From NCBI GenBank assembly GCA_017623955.1, contig JAGAOA010000170.1, positions 1 through 16,775 on the forward strand: a DNA stretch of 16,775 nt, written 5' to 3'. The position numbers were made by a program, and so were the translations under genes. Source of the stretch: Opitutales bacterium (GTDB lineage Bacteria; Verrucomicrobiota; Verrucomicrobiae; Opitutales; CAG-312). Under the pieces are notes generated by a model. It was not told where the DNA came from. It did no database searches and was given only the letters and a program-made list of their open reading frames with translations. Of the stretch, positions 2,189 to 16,775 are shown one piece after another. Each line of letters starts with the position of its first letter. The first letter of the stretch is position 1.

Positions 2189-3967
2189 ATGAAGAACACA
2201 ATAATATTTTTTCTTATAGGGGTAATCTTTTCAGTAAATGCATTTGCAATGGAAATAGCTACAGTCCGCTTTACAAAAAAAGATGGCACGCAAACTACAA
2301 AGCAAATTAAAATGCAAAAACATAATGAGGGTTTTTATCGAGCTTGTGTTCCGGTTGCCGATATTCGTCGCGATGTAAAATTTGTAGATGTTATTGCCAC
2401 TGATGCAGTGGCACAAAAAGGAGAGGATGGTTTCTTTGTTTTAGGCGATAGTTCGTATGGAGAGTTTACACAAGATAATGGTTTTTATTCTCCACGTAGG
2501 TCGCATATGCCAATCTTTGGTATGAAGAATTCAAATGGTGTATTTGTTGCAATCGTTAAAGGTTTGGTTTATGAGCAAAAGCCAACAATAGAAGCAGTTA
2601 ATGGCAAATATTCATTGTTTGCTCGTTATCTAATCGGCGATATGTCTTTTGATCCATACGAAGATATTGTAGTAGATTTTTATCCGCTTGCAAAAAATGC
2701 AGGGTATAGCGAAATGGCAAAGGTGTATCGCAATTACCAGTTGGGTCGTGGCGAAGTAAAGCTATTGCGTGAGCGTATAAAGAATAATCCAACATTGGCA
2801 TATACTGCAGAATCTATTTATGTGCGTATAAAGCATTGTAGAAAAGTTCGCAATGGAAAAGATAAATCTTTGCGTATGCAAACTGTAGAAACCGAACCAC
2901 CACTTGAAGTTTACTTCACTTTCGATGATTTGGCTCGGATTATGCGTGATATGAAATCTGAAGGTATAGACAAAGCTGAAATTTGCTCAGTTGGTTGGAA
3001 TGTAAGTGGTCATGATGGTCGTTTCCCTCAGTATTTTCCAGTAGAAGAAAAAATTGGTGGTGAAAAGAAATATAGAGAAGTTATCAAATTGGGTAAGTCG
3101 ATGGGCTATCAACTTAACTGTCATATAAATCAGATGGCAATGTTTTTTATTTCTGATAGATGGAATGTCAATGATGTCGCAAAGCGTGCCGATGGTTCGT
3201 TGTTTGCTGATTATTATCAACCAAGTGGAATGGCGTATCGTCCATGTTTTCAGCGTGTTCACGATTTGTGGATAAGAGATGATTTTCCACAAATAAAAAA
3301 TCTTGGTCTAAATGGAATTTTTCATGTTGATGTAACGTCATATATTGATCCGTTTGAGTGTTGCGATTCTCGTCATCCGCTCACAAGGAAACAGACTGCG
3401 GAATATCAAAATAAGATAAACGCTTACGCTCAAAAAATCTTTGGAGGTTTTGCTTCAGAAGGGGGAATGGACCACGTTGCAAAGACACTTGATTATGCAT
3501 TATATTTATGGTCGTATCCATCATGGGAAGGTAAGCCTGAACGCTTGGCAACAAAGCATGTTCCATTTTGGCAGTTAGTTTACCATGGTATTATTTTGAG
3601 TAATCCTTATTACACAACAATTGATGCGTTGTATCCTAAGAAATATTCAACCTCAGACCAACGTAAAGCTTACGATTATCTTGAAAATCCTGAAAATCGT
3701 TGGTTGAAAGTTATCGAGTTCAGTGGTCGTCCAACATTCTATTATAGCGATTATGTCGATTTTGCGCCAATGAAACGAGCCTACGAAGAATTTAAAAAAT
3801 TGCGTCACTTGCAACTTCAACTTATGATATATCATGGCGAGCTCGCCAAAAATGTTACTATCACACGTTTTGAGAACGGCGAAGAAATTGTTGTAAATTA
3901 CACCGATAAACCTTACACATATAAGGGACAACAAATTTCAGCAAAATCGTACAAACATTTTAAATAA
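2189..3967 (+). CDS. Secreted putative glycosidase, tandem paralogue 1
   Basis: A 592-aa exported protein with a signal peptide (MKNTIIFFLIGVIFSVNAFA, likely cleaved after AFA). I do not recognise a named family with certainty. The pattern of strand-like blocks ending in acidic residues suggests a TIM-barrel glycoside hydrolase, perhaps related to DUF5696 or to GH101/GH129-like enzymes. Candidate active-site segments are SVGWNVSGHDG (about residues 267-277), GIFHVDV with Asp381 and ASEGGMDH with Glu424. These also occur, at the same residue numbers, in the downstream paralogue. An N-terminal beta-rich region (about 21-200) precedes the presumed catalytic region and a short beta-rich end follows. 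It is the first gene of a two-gene unit (18-base gap) next to a divergent AraC-family regulator, which suggests induced breakdown of a host or dietary glycan. The enzymatic role is inference; the export signal and paralogy are seen directly. Confidence 0.7.
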   Translation: MKNTIIFFLIGVIFSVNAFAMEIATVRFTKKDGTQTTKQIKMQKHNEGFYRACVPVADIRRDVKFVDVIATDAVAQKGEDGFFVLGDSSYGEFTQDNGFYSPRRSHMPIFGMKNSNGVFVAIVKGLVYEQKPTIEAVNGKYSLFARYLIGDMSFDPYEDIVVDFYPLAKNAGYSEMAKVYRNYQLGRGEVKLLRERIKNNPTLAYTAESIYVRIKHCRKVRNGKDKSLRMQTVETEPPLEVYFTFDDLARIMRDMKSEGIDKAEICSVGWNVSGHDGRFPQYFPVEEKIGGEKKYREVIKLGKSMGYQLNCHINQMAMFFISDRWNVNDVAKRADGSLFADYYQPSGMAYRPCFQRVHDLWIRDDFPQIKNLGLNGIFHVDVTSYIDPFECCDSRHPLTRKQTAEYQNKINAYAQKIFGGFASEGGMDHVAKTLDYALYLWSYPSWEGKPERLATKHVPFWQLVYHGIILSNPYYTTIDALYPKKYSTSDQRKAYDYLENPENRWLKVIEFSGRPTFYYSDYVDFAPMKRAYEEFKKLRHLQLQLMIYHGELAKNVTITRFENGEEIVVNYTDKPYTYKGQQISAKSYKHFK

Positions 3968-3985: not shown

Positions 3986-5791
3986 ATGAAAAAAGTAATA
4001 TTAGCAATGCTATCGGTTGCATTGACAACTATTGCATTTGCGTTAGAAAACGTTACAATTCGTACAACCTATGTAGATGGTAAAGTTACTTACGATACCC
4101 AGAAACTCAAAAAACAAAATGGTGGTTTTTACAGAGTTCATATTCCAGTAGATAAAATCAAACGCCATATGGCACACATCGACATCATTGCCGATGATGC
4201 TGTAGCAATAAAGGGCGAGCATGGTTTTTGGGTGATGGGCAATGGAGCTTCTGGCGAGTTCAACAAATATAGCGGACAATATCAGCCTCGTATGTGTGCA
4301 ATGCCAATCTTTGGTATGAAAAATCCACGAGGAGTTTTTGTAGCAATCGTCAAAGGATTACAGTTCGAGCAGCGTCCGCGCGTAGTTTCAGAAAAAGGCA
4401 CATATAGAATTTATACGAGATTTTTAATTAGTCAAAGTGCGTTTGATCCATACGAAGATATCATTGTCGATTTCTATCCACTTCCGCTCACTGCTGATTA
4501 CAATGATATGGCTGCAGTTTACCGCAAATATCAGTTAGAGCGAGGCGAAGTGAAGCTTTTGCGTGAGCGTATCAAAAACAATCCCAAACTTGCCTATTCG
4601 GCAGATAGTATTTTTGTTCGCATAAAGCATTGTGTAAAAAATGCTAATCGGAAAAATCCCAATCATTGCGAGCAAACTCCAGAAAATAAAGCTCCTCTGC
4701 ACGTTATGAAGACTTTTGATCAGTCTATGGAACTTATGAAACAGATGAAAGCTGAGGGTATAGACAAGGCAGAAGTTTGTTCTGTTGGTTGGAATATTGA
4801 TGGTCATGATGGTCCGTTCCCACAATATTTTCCTGTTGAAGAAAAGCTTGGTGGTGAAAAGAAATTTCGTGAGATGCTCGCTTTGGGTAAGTCGCTTGGT
4901 TATAATATGACCTGTCATATAAATCATCATGCGTATTTTTCGCTTTCAAATCGTTGGGATCCAGCTGAGACTGTTAAAAAAGCCGATGGCAAAACACTAT
5001 TTAGATATGGGTTTCAGCCAAGTGGAAATGTTTATTTGCCATGTATGCACCGCCTCTATAATCTATGGGTAAAAGATGATTTCTTAAAGATAAAAGATTT
5101 GGGAATCACTGGTATTTTTCATATCGATGTTCATTCGTGTGAAATTCCCTTTGAATGTTGCGATTCTCGTCATCCGCTTAATAAAAAACAATGGGTAGAA
5201 TATCAAAATAAAATTATAGATTATGCTCATAAAGTTTTTGGTGGCTTTACATCTGAATGTGGAATGGATCACGTTGCCAAAGGCTTAGACTATGCACTTT
5301 ATATGTGGTGGAGTTATCATAGCGATTGGAATACAAAAGATGGTATGGTTCAAAAATATCTACCAATGTGGCAACTTGTTTATCATGGTATAATAATGAG
5401 CAATCCATTCTTATCTACGATTGACCCGCTTTATAAGCATCCTAAACCTGCCAGCGATAAGGAGTGGTTTTTGAATTGCTACAATTTTATTTCTGATCCA
5501 GAACAGCAGTGGTTAAAGGTTATAGAACTCGGAGGTCGCCCGACATATTACTTCCAAAATTATAATACAATCAAACCAATAGTGCGTGCTTATAAAGAAT
5601 ATCAACCATTAAAATATTTGCAGTTGCAGTTGATGGTCTATCATACAGAACTTGCTGATAGAGTAACGCTTACACGCTACGAAAAGGGCGATGAAGTTGT
5701 TGTAAATTACAACAAAGATAATCCCTTTACATACAAGGGCAAAACTATAAAACCAATGGGATATAAACTTTTCAAAAAAAGTAAAAAATAA
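3986..5791 (+). CDS. Secreted putative glycosidase, tandem paralogue 2
   Basis: A 601-aa exported protein, colinear with the preceding gene over nearly its whole length and clearly its duplicate. The signal peptide reads MKKVILAMLSVALTTIAFA. Long stretches are shared with paralogue 1, such as VKLLRERIKNNP, FPQYFPVEEK, FECCDSRHPL and the segments GIFHIDV (Asp381) and SECGMDH (Glu424), so the presumed catalytic apparatus is kept in both copies. Differences cluster around residues 215-245 and 315-355, where loops might set substrate preference. The family is not one I can name securely; a DUF5696-like or GH101/GH129-like TIM barrel is my best suggestion. It is probably co-transcribed with paralogue 1 and ends before a large hairpin that separates it from the converging tatD-family gene. 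Extracellular or periplasmic glycan processing is inferred from the signal peptide and the AraC neighbour. Confidence 0.7.
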   Translation: MKKVILAMLSVALTTIAFALENVTIRTTYVDGKVTYDTQKLKKQNGGFYRVHIPVDKIKRHMAHIDIIADDAVAIKGEHGFWVMGNGASGEFNKYSGQYQPRMCAMPIFGMKNPRGVFVAIVKGLQFEQRPRVVSEKGTYRIYTRFLISQSAFDPYEDIIVDFYPLPLTADYNDMAAVYRKYQLERGEVKLLRERIKNNPKLAYSADSIFVRIKHCVKNANRKNPNHCEQTPENKAPLHVMKTFDQSMELMKQMKAEGIDKAEVCSVGWNIDGHDGPFPQYFPVEEKLGGEKKFREMLALGKSLGYNMTCHINHHAYFSLSNRWDPAETVKKADGKTLFRYGFQPSGNVYLPCMHRLYNLWVKDDFLKIKDLGITGIFHIDVHSCEIPFECCDSRHPLNKKQWVEYQNKIIDYAHKVFGGFTSECGMDHVAKGLDYALYMWWSYHSDWNTKDGMVQKYLPMWQLVYHGIIMSNPFLSTIDPLYKHPKPASDKEWFLNCYNFISDPEQQWLKVIELGGRPTYYFQNYNTIKPIVRAYKEYQPLKYLQLQLMVYHTELADRVTLTRYEKGDEVVVNYNKDNPFTYKGKTIKPMGYKLFKKSKK

Positions 5792-5923: not shown

Positions 5924-6718
5924 TTATAGTTCAAAAAAATCAATCGCATTTTGAGTTGTTATGCGTGCTAAATTTTCCGTATCAGTATTAAATAACTTAG
6001 CAGCAGCTTCTACTGTATATTTTACAAATGCAGGTTGATTTGTGTTTTTTCGCATGGGTATTGGGGCAAGATATGGACAGTCTGTTTCAAACATCAGTTT
6101 TTCTAGTCCTTGTTGAAGCATGCAGTTACGCATTTCATCTGCCGATGGATATGTTATAATTCCCGTAAAAGACGCTCGAGCACCTAAATCATTTAAGCGT
6201 TTTAGTTGTTGAGTAGTTCCTGCAAAACAATGAAAAACGGCATTGTTAAAATTAAAGTCAACATCTAACATTATCTCGATTGCATCATCTACTGCATCTC
6301 TAGCATGTACACATATTTTAGTGTTGAGTTCAGATGCAATTAGAAGTTGACGTTTAAATATTTCTTTTTGTCTTTTTACAATATCATTTGCTTCAGATTT
6401 GTCTTTTGGTAAAAAGTGAAAGTCTAGTCCAATCTCACCAATCCCAACTGGTTTTATATCGGCTATAAAATAAGTTGTTAGAGCATCAATAGCTAAGTTC
6501 GAATTTTCATCTATGTCGCTTGGATGAATTCCTATTTGCCACGATAAAAAATCTGAATTTTCTTTTGTTACTTTTTCGTATTCATTCCAGTTTTCAGGAT
6601 TAGCCGATGCTATTACAATCTTTTTTATTCCATTATCTTTGGCGTTATTGAGAATCTCGTCGAGCATTTCTCGACGTATAAAGTAGTCTAAGTGAGCGTG
6701 CGTATCAATAAATTTCAT
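5924..6718 (-). CDS. tatD: TatD-family metal-dependent hydrolase (DNase)
   Basis: A 264-aa cytoplasmic metal-dependent hydrolase of the TatD/YcfH/YjjV family, whose members act as 3'-5' DNases and have been linked to DNA repair and turnover. All expected metal ligands are visible: His7 and His9 in DTHAHLDYF, Glu95 in GIGEIGLDF, His138 in CVHARDA, His163 in FHCFAG and Asp213 in FETDCPYLAP. Length matches the family. The ATG at 6718 gives the canonical MKFIDTHAHLD beginning. It is a single minus-strand gene, divergent from trxB and convergent with the secreted-protein pair. Which TatD subgroup (TatD, YcfH or YjjV) it belongs to cannot be decided by eye, so the gene symbol is a family label. Confidence 0.93.
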   Translation of the reverse strand: MKFIDTHAHLDYFIRREMLDEILNNAKDNGIKKIVIASANPENWNEYEKVTKENSDFLSWQIGIHPSDIDENSNLAIDALTTYFIADIKPVGIGEIGLDFHFLPKDKSEANDIVKRQKEIFKRQLLIASELNTKICVHARDAVDDAIEIMLDVDFNFNNAVFHCFAGTTQQLKRLNDLGARASFTGIITYPSADEMRNCMLQQGLEKLMFETDCPYLAPIPMRKNTNQPAFVKYTVEAAAKLFNTDTENLARITTQNAIDFFEL

Positions 6719-8649: not shown

Positions 8650-9612
8650 ATGTTGAAGATTTCAGACTTAAAAAATTTCAAAGAAGACGATGGTAAAATT
8701 TCATTTGAACTCATCGCGGTTCTTAAGGCTTTAAGTATACGATTAGCGAAAAACGGAAGTGAATTTTTGATGATTGAATTTGGTGACAATTCATCATCAT
8801 TTTCAACGATGTGTTTCGATAATTCTCCAGTATTCGATATACTTAAAGATTCAGAAATTGGCGATGTTTTTGAGGTGCGTGGAACTACCGATTTTTATCA
8901 AGGTCGGTTAAGTCCAAAATTAGATTCCGTTCGTAAGTTGGAAGATGTTGAGGTTGCTGAAGTTTACGCAGCTATTGCTCCGGTTTCTCCTCATGATCCA
9001 GAAAAAATGCGTCAAGAATTAGAAACTATTATAGCATCTATCGAAGATTTAACACTGCGTGAAACAGTAAATTTTGCATTAGAAAGTACCGCAGGAAAAT
9101 TTTTTACCTCAACCGCGGCGGTAAAAATGCATCATGCATATATGTTTGGTTTGCTTGAACATTCTTTGCGTTGTGCTAGAATGGTGGCAACGTTGGCACC
9201 ATTATATCCAGAAGTAGATAGAGATTTGGCTTTGGCGGGTGCAGTCTTGCACGATATTGGGAAAGTCTTAGAATATTCGCAAAATCTTGCTCCCGATAGA
9301 ACTAGAATTGGTATTTTGCAAGGTCATGTTGTTCTAGGATATAGAATTATTCGTCGTGCAGGTATAAAATGTGGTTTGAATTCCGATTTGCTTGAACGTT
9401 TAGAACACATAATTTTAAGTCATCAAGGCGAGCCAGAGTGGGGCGCAGCCGTCAGAGCCGCAACTCCAGAAGCCATATTTGTATCGAATGTAGATAACTT
9501 TGATGCAAAAATGGGCGCATTAGAAGCTGCAATGGCAGAATCTAGCAATGAATTTGTTGATGTTCCTGCTTTGCGTGTAAAAGTGTTGAATACTAAAATA
9601 GAACACGAATAA
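8650..9612 (+). CDS. YhaM-like 3'-5' exoribonuclease (OB-fold plus HD domain)
   Basis: A 320-aa protein with the architecture of the YhaM/Cbf1 exoribonucleases. There is a nucleic-acid-binding OB-fold at about residues 18-100 (FEVRGTTDFYQGRLSPKLD is typical), then an HD-type phosphohydrolase domain with His162 and His171 (HHAYMFGLLEH), the His201-Asp202 pair (VLHDIGK), His226 (LQGHVVLG), His253 and His258 (LEHIILSHQG) and Asp282 (SNVDNFDAK). These are the expected metal ligands. The family degrades RNA, and sometimes single-stranded DNA, from the 3' end. The gene starts directly after the prmA stop, and its own stop overlaps the rdgB start (TAATG), which points to tight co-expression. The biochemical role is from family knowledge. 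Confidence 0.88.
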   Translation: MLKISDLKNFKEDDGKISFELIAVLKALSIRLAKNGSEFLMIEFGDNSSSFSTMCFDNSPVFDILKDSEIGDVFEVRGTTDFYQGRLSPKLDSVRKLEDVEVAEVYAAIAPVSPHDPEKMRQELETIIASIEDLTLRETVNFALESTAGKFFTSTAAVKMHHAYMFGLLEHSLRCARMVATLAPLYPEVDRDLALAGAVLHDIGKVLEYSQNLAPDRTRIGILQGHVVLGYRIIRRAGIKCGLNSDLLERLEHIILSHQGEPEWGAAVRAATPEAIFVSNVDNFDAKMGALEAAMAESSNEFVDVPALRVKVLNTKIEHE

Positions 9613-14032: not shown

Positions 14033-14455
14033 ATGAATATTTTTACAACATATATCTTAGTTTGCTTAACAATACTAGTGTGTTCATGTTCTTCGACTGT
14101 GAACACATACAAACCTGCCGAAGAGTTCGCAAAACCTCAATACATAGAGGATAAACGCATTATAACCGATTCATCTCTAAAGGATTATGCCAAAGTTGTT
14201 GCTATTAATCAGGCATACGTTGAAGGTCTCTTGAAAATTCAAGTCCGTCTTGCGAATGTATCATCTGACGTTCGTTCTGTAAATTACCAGTTTTCATGGA
14301 TAGATGCAAACGGAATGCAGATTGGAACGTCGACATCAAAGTGGGAAACTGTCGTATTAGAAGGTGGAGAACATAAATTTATTTCGGCAGTAGCTCCGTC
14401 TGTTTCTGCGGTAGATTTTACATTGAAATTTCTTGCAGATGTTCGCGAATATTAA
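14033..14455 (+). CDS. YcfL-family (DUF1425) lipoprotein
   Basis: A 140-aa protein with a lipoprotein signal ending VCSC (Cys19). The mature part matches the YcfL/DUF1425 family: VEGLLKIQVRLANVSSDVRS, then YQFSWIDANGMQIGTSTSKW, and APSVSAVDFTLKF near the end. This is a small beta-sandwich-type family of unknown biochemical role. In E. coli ycfL lies directly before lpoB, and here also the LpoB-like gene follows, after 18 bases. It starts four bases after the COG3014-family gene, so the three are almost certainly one transcript. The domain call rests on the conserved W-DANGM and AP-DF segments, and I am fairly sure of it. Confidence 0.85.
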   Translation: MNIFTTYILVCLTILVCSCSSTVNTYKPAEEFAKPQYIEDKRIITDSSLKDYAKVVAINQAYVEGLLKIQVRLANVSSDVRSVNYQFSWIDANGMQIGTSTSKWETVVLEGGEHKFISAVAPSVSAVDFTLKFLADVREY

Positions 14456-14473
14456 TTCTAAAGAAGATAATAT

Positions 14474-15046
14474 ATGAAAAGTAAAAAGATTATTAGTTTT
14501 TTATGTGCATTGGGGATAATCGTTATTTCTGGATGCGCAGGAGATGAAAATGCTAGATATGTTGAATCGGGTGGCGCTCGCACTATCATATCTACAAATA
14601 AAATAAATATTGCTGATTGGAACACTGCTGCGATTACTTTAGTTAATGAAATGCTTTCATCGGGGGCTTTTGAAAGAATTCCGGAGCAGAAGCCAATTAG
14701 GTTGGTTGTAAGCAGAATTGTCAATAGAACATCTGAAAATATTGATACCGATATGCTTACGAAAAAGATAGAAATTACGCTTACAAATTCTGGAAAAGCC
14801 TTGATTGTTAGTTCTGACCCGACTACCTACAATATGGCTCAAAATCAAGCCAAAGTATTGGGGAAAAGTGTGCCTAGCCCCAAGATAACTTTAACTGGTA
14901 AAATTTTGGAAGACAGAGAACGCAATTCAAGCCTAAATGAAGTGACTTATACTTTTCAATTAGAGCTGAATTATGCTGGTGCGGCTGTATGGATTGGTGA
15001 AAAGCAAATAACAAAACAGCAGGGGCGTTCCTCGTTTGGTTGGTAA
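14474..15046 (+). CDS. lpoB: LpoB-like penicillin-binding-protein activator lipoprotein
   Basis: A 190-aa outer-membrane-type lipoprotein: MKSKKIISFLCALGIIVISG then Cys21. After a short linker (about 22-45), in place of the long disordered linker of E. coli LpoB, comes the LpoB fold: MLSSGAFERIPEQKPIRLVV, then RIVNRTSENIDTDMLTKKIE and LTNSGKALIV, which are family hallmarks. In E. coli LpoB reaches through peptidoglycan to stimulate the synthase PBP1b. Whether this homologue does so here is inference; no penicillin-binding protein is in the window. It is the last gene of the lipoprotein trio, and a hairpin terminator follows about 60 bases downstream. Confidence 0.87.
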   Translation: MKSKKIISFLCALGIIVISGCAGDENARYVESGGARTIISTNKINIADWNTAAITLVNEMLSSGAFERIPEQKPIRLVVSRIVNRTSENIDTDMLTKKIEITLTNSGKALIVSSDPTTYNMAQNQAKVLGKSVPSPKITLTGKILEDRERNSSLNEVTYTFQLELNYAGAAVWIGEKQITKQQGRSSFGW

Positions 15047-15068
15047 CCATAAAAAACGGGTGTGGACG

Positions 15069-15161
15069 TACCACTGTTGCGAAAAATAAATGTTTTCTAA
15101 ATACCTTAAAGGCGTTTCAGTAGAAACGCCTTTTTTGTATATAGATTTCGCCACAGTGGTG
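15069..15161. repeat. Inverted repeat surrounding the lpoB terminator
   Basis: CCACTGTTGCGAAA (15071-15084) is the reverse complement, at 13 of 14 positions, of TTTCGCCACAGTGG (15146-15159). The match extends two bases outward on each side if one wobble is allowed. The terminator hairpin sits between the arms. It may be part of an interspersed element, since a second repeat arm begins 11 bases further on. Confidence 0.7.
15108..15136 (+). terminator. Terminator of the lipoprotein operon
   Basis: AAAGGCGTTTC (15108-15118) and GAAACGCCTTT (15123-15133) form an 11-bp stem around an AGTA loop, with a T run 15131-15136. It is 61 bases past the lpoB stop. Confidence 0.9.
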
Positions 15162-15171
15162 CTCGGTTCAT

Positions 15172-15210
15172 AAAACGCGAAAGTATCGGGACAATCTCGC
15201 ACGTTTTACT
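15172..15210. repeat. Left arm of inverted repeat bracketing the PEP-CTERM gene
   Basis: It has two blocks, AAAACGCG (15172-15179) and TCTCGCACGTTTTACT (15195-15210), separated by 15 bases. Both occur as exact reverse complements, in the mirrored order, at 16674-16698. Within the arm, AAAACGCGA can also fold on TCGCACGTTTT with a two-base bulge. Confidence 0.8.
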
Positions 15211-15308
15211 TCTTACAACCCAAGTTTGTTCTAAGCCGATTTTTTCCAATTATCTTTTGTAATTAGATTGTTTCGTGTTGCGTCTATAAATTTTTTTTAA
15301 AAAAAGAC

Positions 15309-15338
15309 TTGACAAATTTTCTAGGGGGGGGGTATTCG
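15309..15338 (+). promoter_or_regulatory. Promoter with poly-G spacer, putatively phase-variable
   Basis: A perfect -35 (TTGACA, 15309-15314) is followed by an 18-base spacer that ends in nine consecutive G (15324-15332), then TATTCG (15333-15338) as a weak -10. An A/T tract (T8A7, 15291-15305) directly upstream could act as an UP element. The expected start is near 15345, with a leader of about 26 bases. Loss or gain of a G by slippage would change the box spacing and so promoter strength, as at the meningococcal porA promoter. Phase variation is inferred. Confidence 0.65.
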
Positions 15339-15357
15339 TTGCTACTGTTGTAATAAG

Positions 15358-15363
15358 AAAGGA
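15358..15363 (+). promoter_or_regulatory. Shine-Dalgarno site of the PEP-CTERM gene
   Basis: AAAGGA lies seven bases before the ATG at 15371 and fixes that start. Confidence 0.65.
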
Positions 15364-15370
15364 TTTTAAA

Positions 15371-16678
15371 ATGAACAAATTTTCAACTTTATTTTCAGCA
15401 TTTCTGTTGGGATCATCAGTATTGGCTTTCGCTGATATTGGAAGTGGAGTAAAAACCGAAAGTGATTATGGCTTGATAGTTCAGTATCCCCAATTTGATA
15501 TTGGTGCAAACGATGTAACTATTACTCATTATCGTGGTTCGGCTCGCCATATAGGTAATAAGGACTTAACATGTTATATAGATGCTCACAATTATACAGG
15601 TACAAAACTTGTTTCTGATGAAACTTCTGGCGGTACAGGTACAAATTGTTTCGGTTTTAATGGTATGGTATTTCGTGCAGATAGCAACGATTACGATATA
15701 ACAATTTCTGCAACAGAAAGAGCTTCTTCTGTTGGTATTTTGACATACGGTATTCATGCCGATAATGTTACTTTAAACGTAAATCTCAGCGGAAAATCAC
15801 ACTTTTCAAATGATGGAAATGCTACAATATCTGCAAAAAATAATGCAATATTAAATTGGAATTCTGCTCAGACTACAGAAGTAAGAAAAGCTTCGTTTAT
15901 TATCGAAGCTGGTTCGGTTCTAAATGCAAAATTCGATAATACTTCTTATAAGACTTACCTTGGTTCAAACTCGTTGGGTGGTAAGTTTACATTTGGTTTG
16001 AATGCCGTAAATGGAACCATTAATCCTGATACACATCATTGGTTCTTCTGGTCTGGAGCATCTTCAATATCGGGACAATCTGCTACTAACAAGTCGAACT
16101 TTAATGGTAGATGGGAAATTTCTCATGGTGCTACTGTGACTGTTAGTGATTCTGATGAAGGTTCTATTATTATAGGTGATTACAATCTCATTATGAGAAG
16201 TTCCACTTTGCAATTAAATTCATCTAACGCATTGGCAATATCTGATACTCAAGGTCAGGAAAATATCACTTTAGAGGTTGGTAAAGATTGTTCGGCTAGA
16301 CTTGAATTAGGTGCTGATAATTCGTTTGAAGGATTGATGCTTAATTCTGCTACTACAAACACTTTGAGCGTTTTATTGGGTGGAAATTCATTAAGCTTTA
16401 GTACTGTTTCAACTGGAATCATTGGTAAGATGTATATTGAAGATTTCTCTGAAAATCTTGTAAAAATTGATTCGATAGACGAAAAATTCTTGGGTGAAGA
16501 TGGTTCTGTTTCTTTCATATTGGCTGGAAGCAAAGAGAATGCGGACTTGGCTCAATCTGTATATTGGGACAAAAATTCAGGATACTTATCTTTGGTTGCA
16601 GTACCAGAGCCAGCCGAATGGGCAATGATATTCGGAGCAATAGCTTTAGCATTTGTAGCCTATCGTCGCCGTAAGTAA
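15371..16678 (+). CDS. PEP-CTERM sorting-domain surface protein
   Basis: A 435-aa exported protein. The N-terminal signal peptide is MNKFSTLFSAFLLGSSVLAF, likely cleaved near residues 21-22. The last 25 residues (411-435) form a PEP-CTERM tail: VPEP, a hydrophobic span including IFGAIALAFVA, and the basic end YRRRK. Exosortase recognises such tails and anchors or releases the protein at the envelope. The central region is rich in Ser, Thr, Asn and Gly with short strand-turn repeats (for example DNVTLNVNLSG, NAILNWNS, NLIMRSSTLQLNSSNALAIS). This suggests a beta-helix like that of autotransporter passengers or adhesins; no enzyme motif is visible. A terminator follows, the promoter has a poly-G spacer, and inverted repeats bracket the gene, one arm covering its stop codon. 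The sorting tail is certain; an adhesin or surface-layer role is a guess. Confidence 0.92.
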   Translation: MNKFSTLFSAFLLGSSVLAFADIGSGVKTESDYGLIVQYPQFDIGANDVTITHYRGSARHIGNKDLTCYIDAHNYTGTKLVSDETSGGTGTNCFGFNGMVFRADSNDYDITISATERASSVGILTYGIHADNVTLNVNLSGKSHFSNDGNATISAKNNAILNWNSAQTTEVRKASFIIEAGSVLNAKFDNTSYKTYLGSNSLGGKFTFGLNAVNGTINPDTHHWFFWSGASSISGQSATNKSNFNGRWEISHGATVTVSDSDEGSIIIGDYNLIMRSSTLQLNSSNALAISDTQGQENITLEVGKDCSARLELGADNSFEGLMLNSATTNTLSVLLGGNSLSFSTVSTGIIGKMYIEDFSENLVKIDSIDEKFLGEDGSVSFILAGSKENADLAQSVYWDKNSGYLSLVAVPEPAEWAMIFGAIALAFVAYRRRK

Positions 16679-16698
16679 AACGTGCGAGACCGCGTTTT
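16674..16698. repeat. Right arm of inverted repeat bracketing the PEP-CTERM gene
   Basis: AGTAAAACGTGCGAGA (16674-16689) and CGCGTTTT (16691-16698), separated by one base, are exact reverse complements of the two blocks at 15172-15210. The arm includes the TAA stop of the PEP-CTERM gene and can fold by itself (AAAACG with CGTTTT). Confidence 0.8.
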
Positions 16699-16775
16699 CT
16701 TTGATGATGAGTTTTAATTTATACTATAAGGCACTTCAACGAAGTGCCTTTTTTTATTAAATAAACTCATCAAAG
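16699..16775. repeat. Inverted repeat surrounding the PEP-CTERM terminator
   Basis: CTTTGATGATGAGTTT (16699-16714) pairs with AAACTCATCAAAG (16763-16775) apart from a three-base bulge, with the terminator hairpin between. The right arm reaches the window end, so it may continue further. Confidence 0.6.
16728..16755 (+). terminator. Terminator after the PEP-CTERM gene
   Basis: AAGGCACTTC (16728-16737) and GAAGTGCCTT (16741-16750) form a perfect 10-bp stem with an AAC loop, followed by T residues to 16755. Confidence 0.9.

Follow-up and report, generated by a model that had tools for sequence, protein, structure and literature searches.

A promoter in the DNA of an Opitutales bacterium carries nine consecutive guanines between its -35 and -10 elements and stands before a gene for a PEP-CTERM protein, a member of a large bacterial class of which few functions are known. 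Is this run a switch, and does it stand alone? We addressed both questions with the window, i.e., the whole analysed stretch of 16,775 nucleotides (contig JAGAOA010000170.1), and with related genomes, above all the nearest one, a 2.4 Mb metagenome-assembled genome of Verrucomicrobiaceae bacterium SIG74 (hereafter G001). The best explanation is quite probably a regulon of exosortase substrates that undergoes slipped-strand phase variation through the promoter spacer.

The preliminary description of this DNA had placed a G9 run between TTGACA and TATTCG, with a spacer of 18 nt, before a PEP-CTERM gene, and had called the run out of character for the genome. Sequence and a script check of the spacer reproduced the arrangement exactly (Table 1), the promoter ending 38 nt 5′ of the ATG at 15371. 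The run is the sole G/C run of at least 7 in the 16,775 bases, which contain two G6 runs besides, and a first-order Markov model predicts 0.008 runs of at least 9 in the window. TATTCG is a weak, putative -10 element. A generic sigma-70 scan of 14300-16775 returned fewer promoter-like sites than were found in shuffles and did not list the TTGACA/TATTCG site; the scan accepts only -10 hexamers whose position 6 is T, and TATTCG has a G there. The -10 assignment therefore rests on comparison with other copies. The two terminator-like hairpins, one 3′ of the upstream gene and one 3′ of the PEP-CTERM gene, suggest that the latter is a single-gene unit.

Table 1 Features of the window around the G9 tract.
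Feature	Position	Strand	Basis
-35 element TTGACA	15309..15314	+	Sequence; fixed by search construction in G001 copies
Spacer left part AATTTTCTA, 9 nt	15315..15323	+	Sequence; 8 to 10 nt in G001 copies
G9 tract, proposed variable spacer part	15324..15332	+	Sequence; G8-G10 in G001 copies
-10 element TATTCG	15333..15338	+	TAGCAT/TAGTAT in 20/28 G001 copies, TATTCG in one
TTGCT after -10	15339..15343	+	Conserved positions, mostly TTG in G001 copies
AAAGGA, likely ribosome-binding site	15358..15363	+	Sequence, inference
PEP-CTERM protein gene, 435 aa	15371..16678	+	N-terminus of the signal type; all-beta body; VPEP, helix and RRRK at the C-terminus
Terminator-like hairpin 3′ of upstream LpoB-like gene	15108..15133	+	
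Terminator-like hairpin 3′ of PEP-CTERM gene	16728..16750	+	

The product of this gene scores 16.5 bits against the PEP_CTERM profile TIGR02595, half a bit above the curated cut-off of 16, and ends as a PEP-CTERM substrate does, with VPEP, a hydrophobic helix and a basic end (VPEPAEWAMIFGAIALAFVAYRRRK). Structure prediction (mean pLDDT 84) gave a body made of beta strands throughout and a helix at the C-terminus. Together with the exosortases of the related G001, where three matches to PF09721 were found, the sorting signal and the model would be compatible with a surface location. A full-length relative, P0002, is 75% identical. No Pfam match was obtained with this protein, none of the 134 matches of a PDB fold search at E up to 10 reached 0.001 or better, and no relatives were found in viral contigs. 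Genes for a DUF1425 protein and an LpoB-like protein lie upstream. An exact 14-bp direct repeat (TATCGGGACAATCT) occurs upstream of the PEP-CTERM gene and again inside it (15184-15197 and 16068-16081). Elsewhere in the window, two adjoining DUF5696 genes (2189-3967 and 3986-5791) show weak similarity, under the cut-off, to endo-alpha-N-acetylgalactosaminidase.

Relatives were reached through the YhaM-like protein of the window (8650-9612), which finds Opitutales and other Verrucomicrobiota; among the best 80 of 142 confirmed loci, the nearest lies on SUVO01000008.1 of G001 (78% identical). The G001 stretch that matches the window around this gene has no G/C run of at least 7, and the window promoter is therefore absent from the matching place. 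A search of 88 relatives, G001 included, with the pattern TTGACA-N6..13-G7-N0..5-TA returned 32 rows in G001, corresponding to 29 distinct places of the form TTGACA-N8..10-G8..10-TA, against none for the reversed pattern in that genome. Seven other relatives had 1 to 4 rows each and 80 had none, while the reversed pattern gave 1 or 2 rows in 4 relatives other than G001. A stricter pattern matched 22 times in G001 and not once in a sample of 383 further genomes of the class, and a pattern in which only TTGA was required, run on 19 genomes, gave 29 matches in G001, 1 in Marseille-Q1082 (G007), and 0 in the other 17. Among the genomes searched, the module is thus restricted in lineage.

Long G runs in G001 largely coincide with this module. 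All 37 rows for runs of G9 or more were listed and correspond to 25 distinct runs, 22 of which lie inside the module. We fetched 40 stretches of this genome (372,477 bases) around such runs and around PEP-CTERM matches, plus three 20 kb backgrounds; in these 372 kb there were 67 G runs of 5, 8 of 6, 0 of 7, and 37 of 8-11, and 29 of the last 37 followed a TTGACA within 18 nt, in stretches that had been picked around such runs. Many copies lie well inside contigs and several near contig ends. Judged by its sequence, the window promoter belongs to a repeated module of ~45 bp found in the nearest genome, and from this one copy we infer that the window's own genome has the same promoter set. The slip-prone spacer tract that had been proposed for one promoter finds support in G001, where 28 other complete copies all have a run of 8, 9 or 10 G between TTGACA and TA (31 rows minus the window and two G6 sites; a copy cut by the end of contig C21 is absent). 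A slippage switch at a surface-protein promoter thus stands as the reading, and the idea of a single switch does not, the window promoter being a member of a genome-wide set.

The set is tied to PEP-CTERM genes. The suggestion that further poly-G tracts should be sought in the promoters of such genes was followed in G001, where 25 of the 29 module places stand before them. Conversely, 25 of 47 PEP-CTERM open reading frames (ORFs), about half, have the module, at 34-67 nt before the ATG; the 47, some of them fragments, are the ORFs of at least 100 residues that a script found in the fetched stretches, 46 of them being profile matches (47 matches, with a 36-residue frame left out) and one being extra. 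If the genome is assumed to have 2,000 genes, 47 of them of this kind, the chance of 25 of 29 places falling at them is ~2e-40. Two of the other four places, at the ends of contigs C15 and C26, look like one locus and precede a protein of 1,228 residues that has immunoglobulin-like domains; another lies before a 1,135-residue Sel1-repeat protein, and the last sits where contig C21 ends and shows no gene. The PEPA type, as opposed to PEPS, accounts for 24 of the 25 ORFs with the module and 10 of the 22 without it (Fisher p 0.00016, a value flattered by kinship among the ORFs).

Two other arrangements were observed in G001. On the minus strand of stretch L138, a gene that starts at 6510 has upstream of it a TTGACA followed by TA-C8-TAATAAAT, like a G-run spacer turned round. 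The motif GGGTATTT-N1..3-AATA, preceded by TGCAAT or TTGACA-like bases, gave six matches near PEPST-type PEP-CTERM genes (L149, L150, L158, and L166) and perhaps marks a second regulon.

The 28 complete copies differ in the length of the run (G8 in 7, G9 in 12, and G10 in 9) and in the spacer (19 nt in 14, 18 in 12, and 17 in 2). The proposal that eight G would give an optimal spacer of 17 bases was not upheld by these spacers, among which 18 and 19 predominate. Substitution accounts for some of the variation in G number, as the tenth spacer base is A or G and copies with A have one G less at the same total. Different runs also occur behind the same left flank, AAGATTGTT being found with G9 and G10, and AAGATTATTA with G8 and G9. 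In 20 of the 28, the -10 element reads TAGCAT or TAGTAT; TTG follows in most copies, and there is little in common upstream of TTGACA beyond GC and a T-rich stretch. One G001 copy, L134 (G8, spacer 17), has TATTCG-TTG as in the window (G9, spacer 18); its protein matches that of the window at the C-terminus only.

One pair of contig ends bears on variation at a single locus. The 3′ end of C26 and the start of C15 share a 154-base overlap; the 117 bases that precede the run and the 27 that follow it are the same in both, but the run is G10 in C26 and G9 in C15. Two alleles in one sample would give such a pair, and a read error could too at the stated depth of 3.9 (from a G001 contig title). Tract lengths of 8-10 were thus seen across paralogous copies, and G9 and G10 in one contig-end pair of a low-depth assembly. 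G001 and the three further genomes that were queried have MutS, so slippage is not favoured there by a defect of mismatch repair.

On the minus strand of G001 stretch L141, two PEP-CTERM genes (starting at 6493 and 4264) have no module and carry G8 in the codons of their signal peptides (SLxGGGYVIA), in frame in both as assembled. These may be tracts of the same kind that act at the level of translation; a G8 at such a place in module-less genes is expected if it is slippage, and not a protein-binding site, that is kept.

Runs of other kinds were seen in further relatives. The relative G002 has 14 PEP-CTERM matches, with nearby runs of G8 or more that lie mostly outside such a promoter, and G runs of up to G28 occur in this genome; on the minus strand of one of its stretches (L200, G002:C26:15000-16898), the start codon of a homologue of the window protein is closely followed by C23, which in the assembly leaves the gene out of frame. 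In Marseille-Q1082, TTGACT and TAAATT flank a G16 in promoter position; the signal-type start of the gene behind it contains a stop in the assembled sequence. The same genome has a G9 in the first codons of an exosortase gene, in frame as assembled (L235, G007:C1:1113500-1117500), so that the sorting enzyme may itself be switchable, to judge by its sequence. In G004, a G9 follows TTGAAC, with a spacing of 18, before a 447-residue exported-type protein. G003 has many PEP-CTERM matches, and the module search gave 0 matches there; no G/C run above 4 was found in 20 upstream regions fetched from it.

Four viral contigs matched the promoter pattern, one of which looks like chance. The IMG/VR contigs L174 (2269-2297), L175 (11466-11494), and L176 (883-913) carry promoters of the form TTGACA-N8-G8/G8/G10-TAGAATTGTCTTGCAA, with TAGAAT as the -10 element, unrelated genes downstream, and a run length that differs between similar copies. 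A looser scan found the same three contigs and six chance-like others. Sixty residues of one such phage protein gave one match in PHROGs (E 0.17).

These observations could be read otherwise. The run might be a fixed motif of near-constant length that does not switch and serves as a mark of the PEP-CTERM regulon, recognised by a regulator or by a variant sigma factor. The narrow spacer range of 17 to 19 in the 28 copies and the conserved bases on both sides of the run, including the TTG after the -10, agree with such a motif, as do the runs of up to G28 in G002, by which runs need not stay short. The sister genome G003, which is rich in PEP-CTERM genes, lacks the module and counts against slippage. 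A motif of that sort is hard to square with runs of 8 to 10 G, also behind identical left flanks, with G9 and G10 at the C26/C15 locus, or with G8 in the coding sequence of two module-less PEP-CTERM genes, where a promoter factor would not act, and we regard it as unlikely.

Poly-G can be an artefact of some sequencing machines, and several of the G001 copies lie near contig ends, so the run might be meaningless or a product of sequencing chemistry. Its recurrence at the same place within conserved flanks in two separate assemblies, and the many copies well inside contigs, speak against this; with 29 places in G001 against 0 for the reversed control, and the strict form at 0 in 383 genomes of the class, chance or artefact was rejected as scarcely conceivable. 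Finally, a perfect 17-bp inverted repeat (TCTCGCACGTTTTACTT at 15195-15211 and AAGTAAAACGTGCGAGA at 16673-16689) surrounds the promoter and gene of the window, and an inversion might flip both and leave the G run incidental. In Akkermansia muciniphila, PEP-CTERM genes are indeed among those enriched near invertons, group 138 being the inverton group concerned (PMC11892184). Where an inverton switches a gene, the repeats enclose the promoter and the flip parts it from the gene; here they enclose the promoter and the whole gene, which a flip would not part. The G runs would also be left unexplained. Since G001 has a sequence close to the left arm (CTCGCACGTTTTACTT) in front of a different PEP-CTERM gene (L159), the repeat is probably a dispersed intergenic one, and inversion is very improbable as the switch.

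Slippage in a promoter spacer, the reading that we prefer, has known counterparts. In Neisseria meningitidis, a homopolymer tract between the -35 and -10 elements of porA and fetA alters the transcription of surface proteins (PMC2791445), and the tract of opc lies over the -35 rather than in the spacer (PMC7864442). These are single genes with their own promoters, whereas in G001 one module stands before ~25 genes. Treponema pallidum has a poly-G between the -35 and -10 of tp0126, with output best at a distance of 17, and poly-G promoters at tprE, G, J and tprL as well, i.e., at several outer-membrane protein genes of one genome (PMC7864442). The likeness lies in poly-G in several surface-protein promoters of one genome; the differences are that T. 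pallidum belongs to another phylum, that no exosortase substrates are named in the cited portion of that paper, and that length variation and reporter output were measured there, whereas ours is a reading of sequence. The spacers of G001 are mostly 18 or 19, as against the best 17 of tp0126, so that either length could be the ON state; one module, moreover, recurs 29 times in G001. In A. muciniphila, of the same phylum, surface genes are likewise under random switching, the mechanism at PEP-CTERM genes being DNA inversion (PMC11892184); homopolymer phase variation has been suggested there (PMC3048395), although the homopolymers highlighted in that study lie within two capsule-type genes and not in PEP-CTERM promoters. 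With a homopolymer between -35 and -10 at 15309-15338 and in the 28 complete G001 copies, the window is of the porA/tp0126 kind by tract position as read.

Under slipped-strand phase variation, the G9 would make the spacer of a sigma-70-type promoter variable in length. The promoter would serve one gene only, whose beta-rich product is exported, sorted by exosortase and placed on the surface. Mispairing at replication would add or remove one G, the distance between the -35 and -10 elements (18 here) would change by one, and transcription would be raised or lowered in a heritable and reversible way. Slippage is read from the length differences between copies and from the C26/C15 pair; the switching and its effect on transcription are probable. 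With the module before about half of the PEP-CTERM genes of G001, a population would come to hold many combinations of surface proteins.

The mechanism itself is known from porA, fetA, and Treponema; what is new, as far as the literature searched goes, is the lineage, the exosortase target class, and the number of genes under one module. No description of slippage control of PEP-CTERM genes was found in the accessible portions of that literature, outside which lie most subscription journals and all bioRxiv preprints. If true, this would rank, to our knowledge, among the largest sets of promoter-spacer slippage switches that a single genome has, and would be the first to target exosortase substrates.

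We lean towards the view that an Opitutales-related lineage runs its exosortase-sorted surface as a contingency regulon, in which a module of ~45 bp with a slipping G8-10 run would stand before ~25 PEP-CTERM genes (24/25 PEPA), each mainly with a spacer of 18 or 19, while some module-less genes would keep G8 in their signal-peptide codons. If the view is true, very many surface combinations would arise from one clone. A countable switch before ~25 PEP-CTERM genes would suggest that these are outward-facing proteins under changing selection, by phages, hosts or rivals, and would open this to test in metagenome reads, where the number of G at each such site can be tallied.
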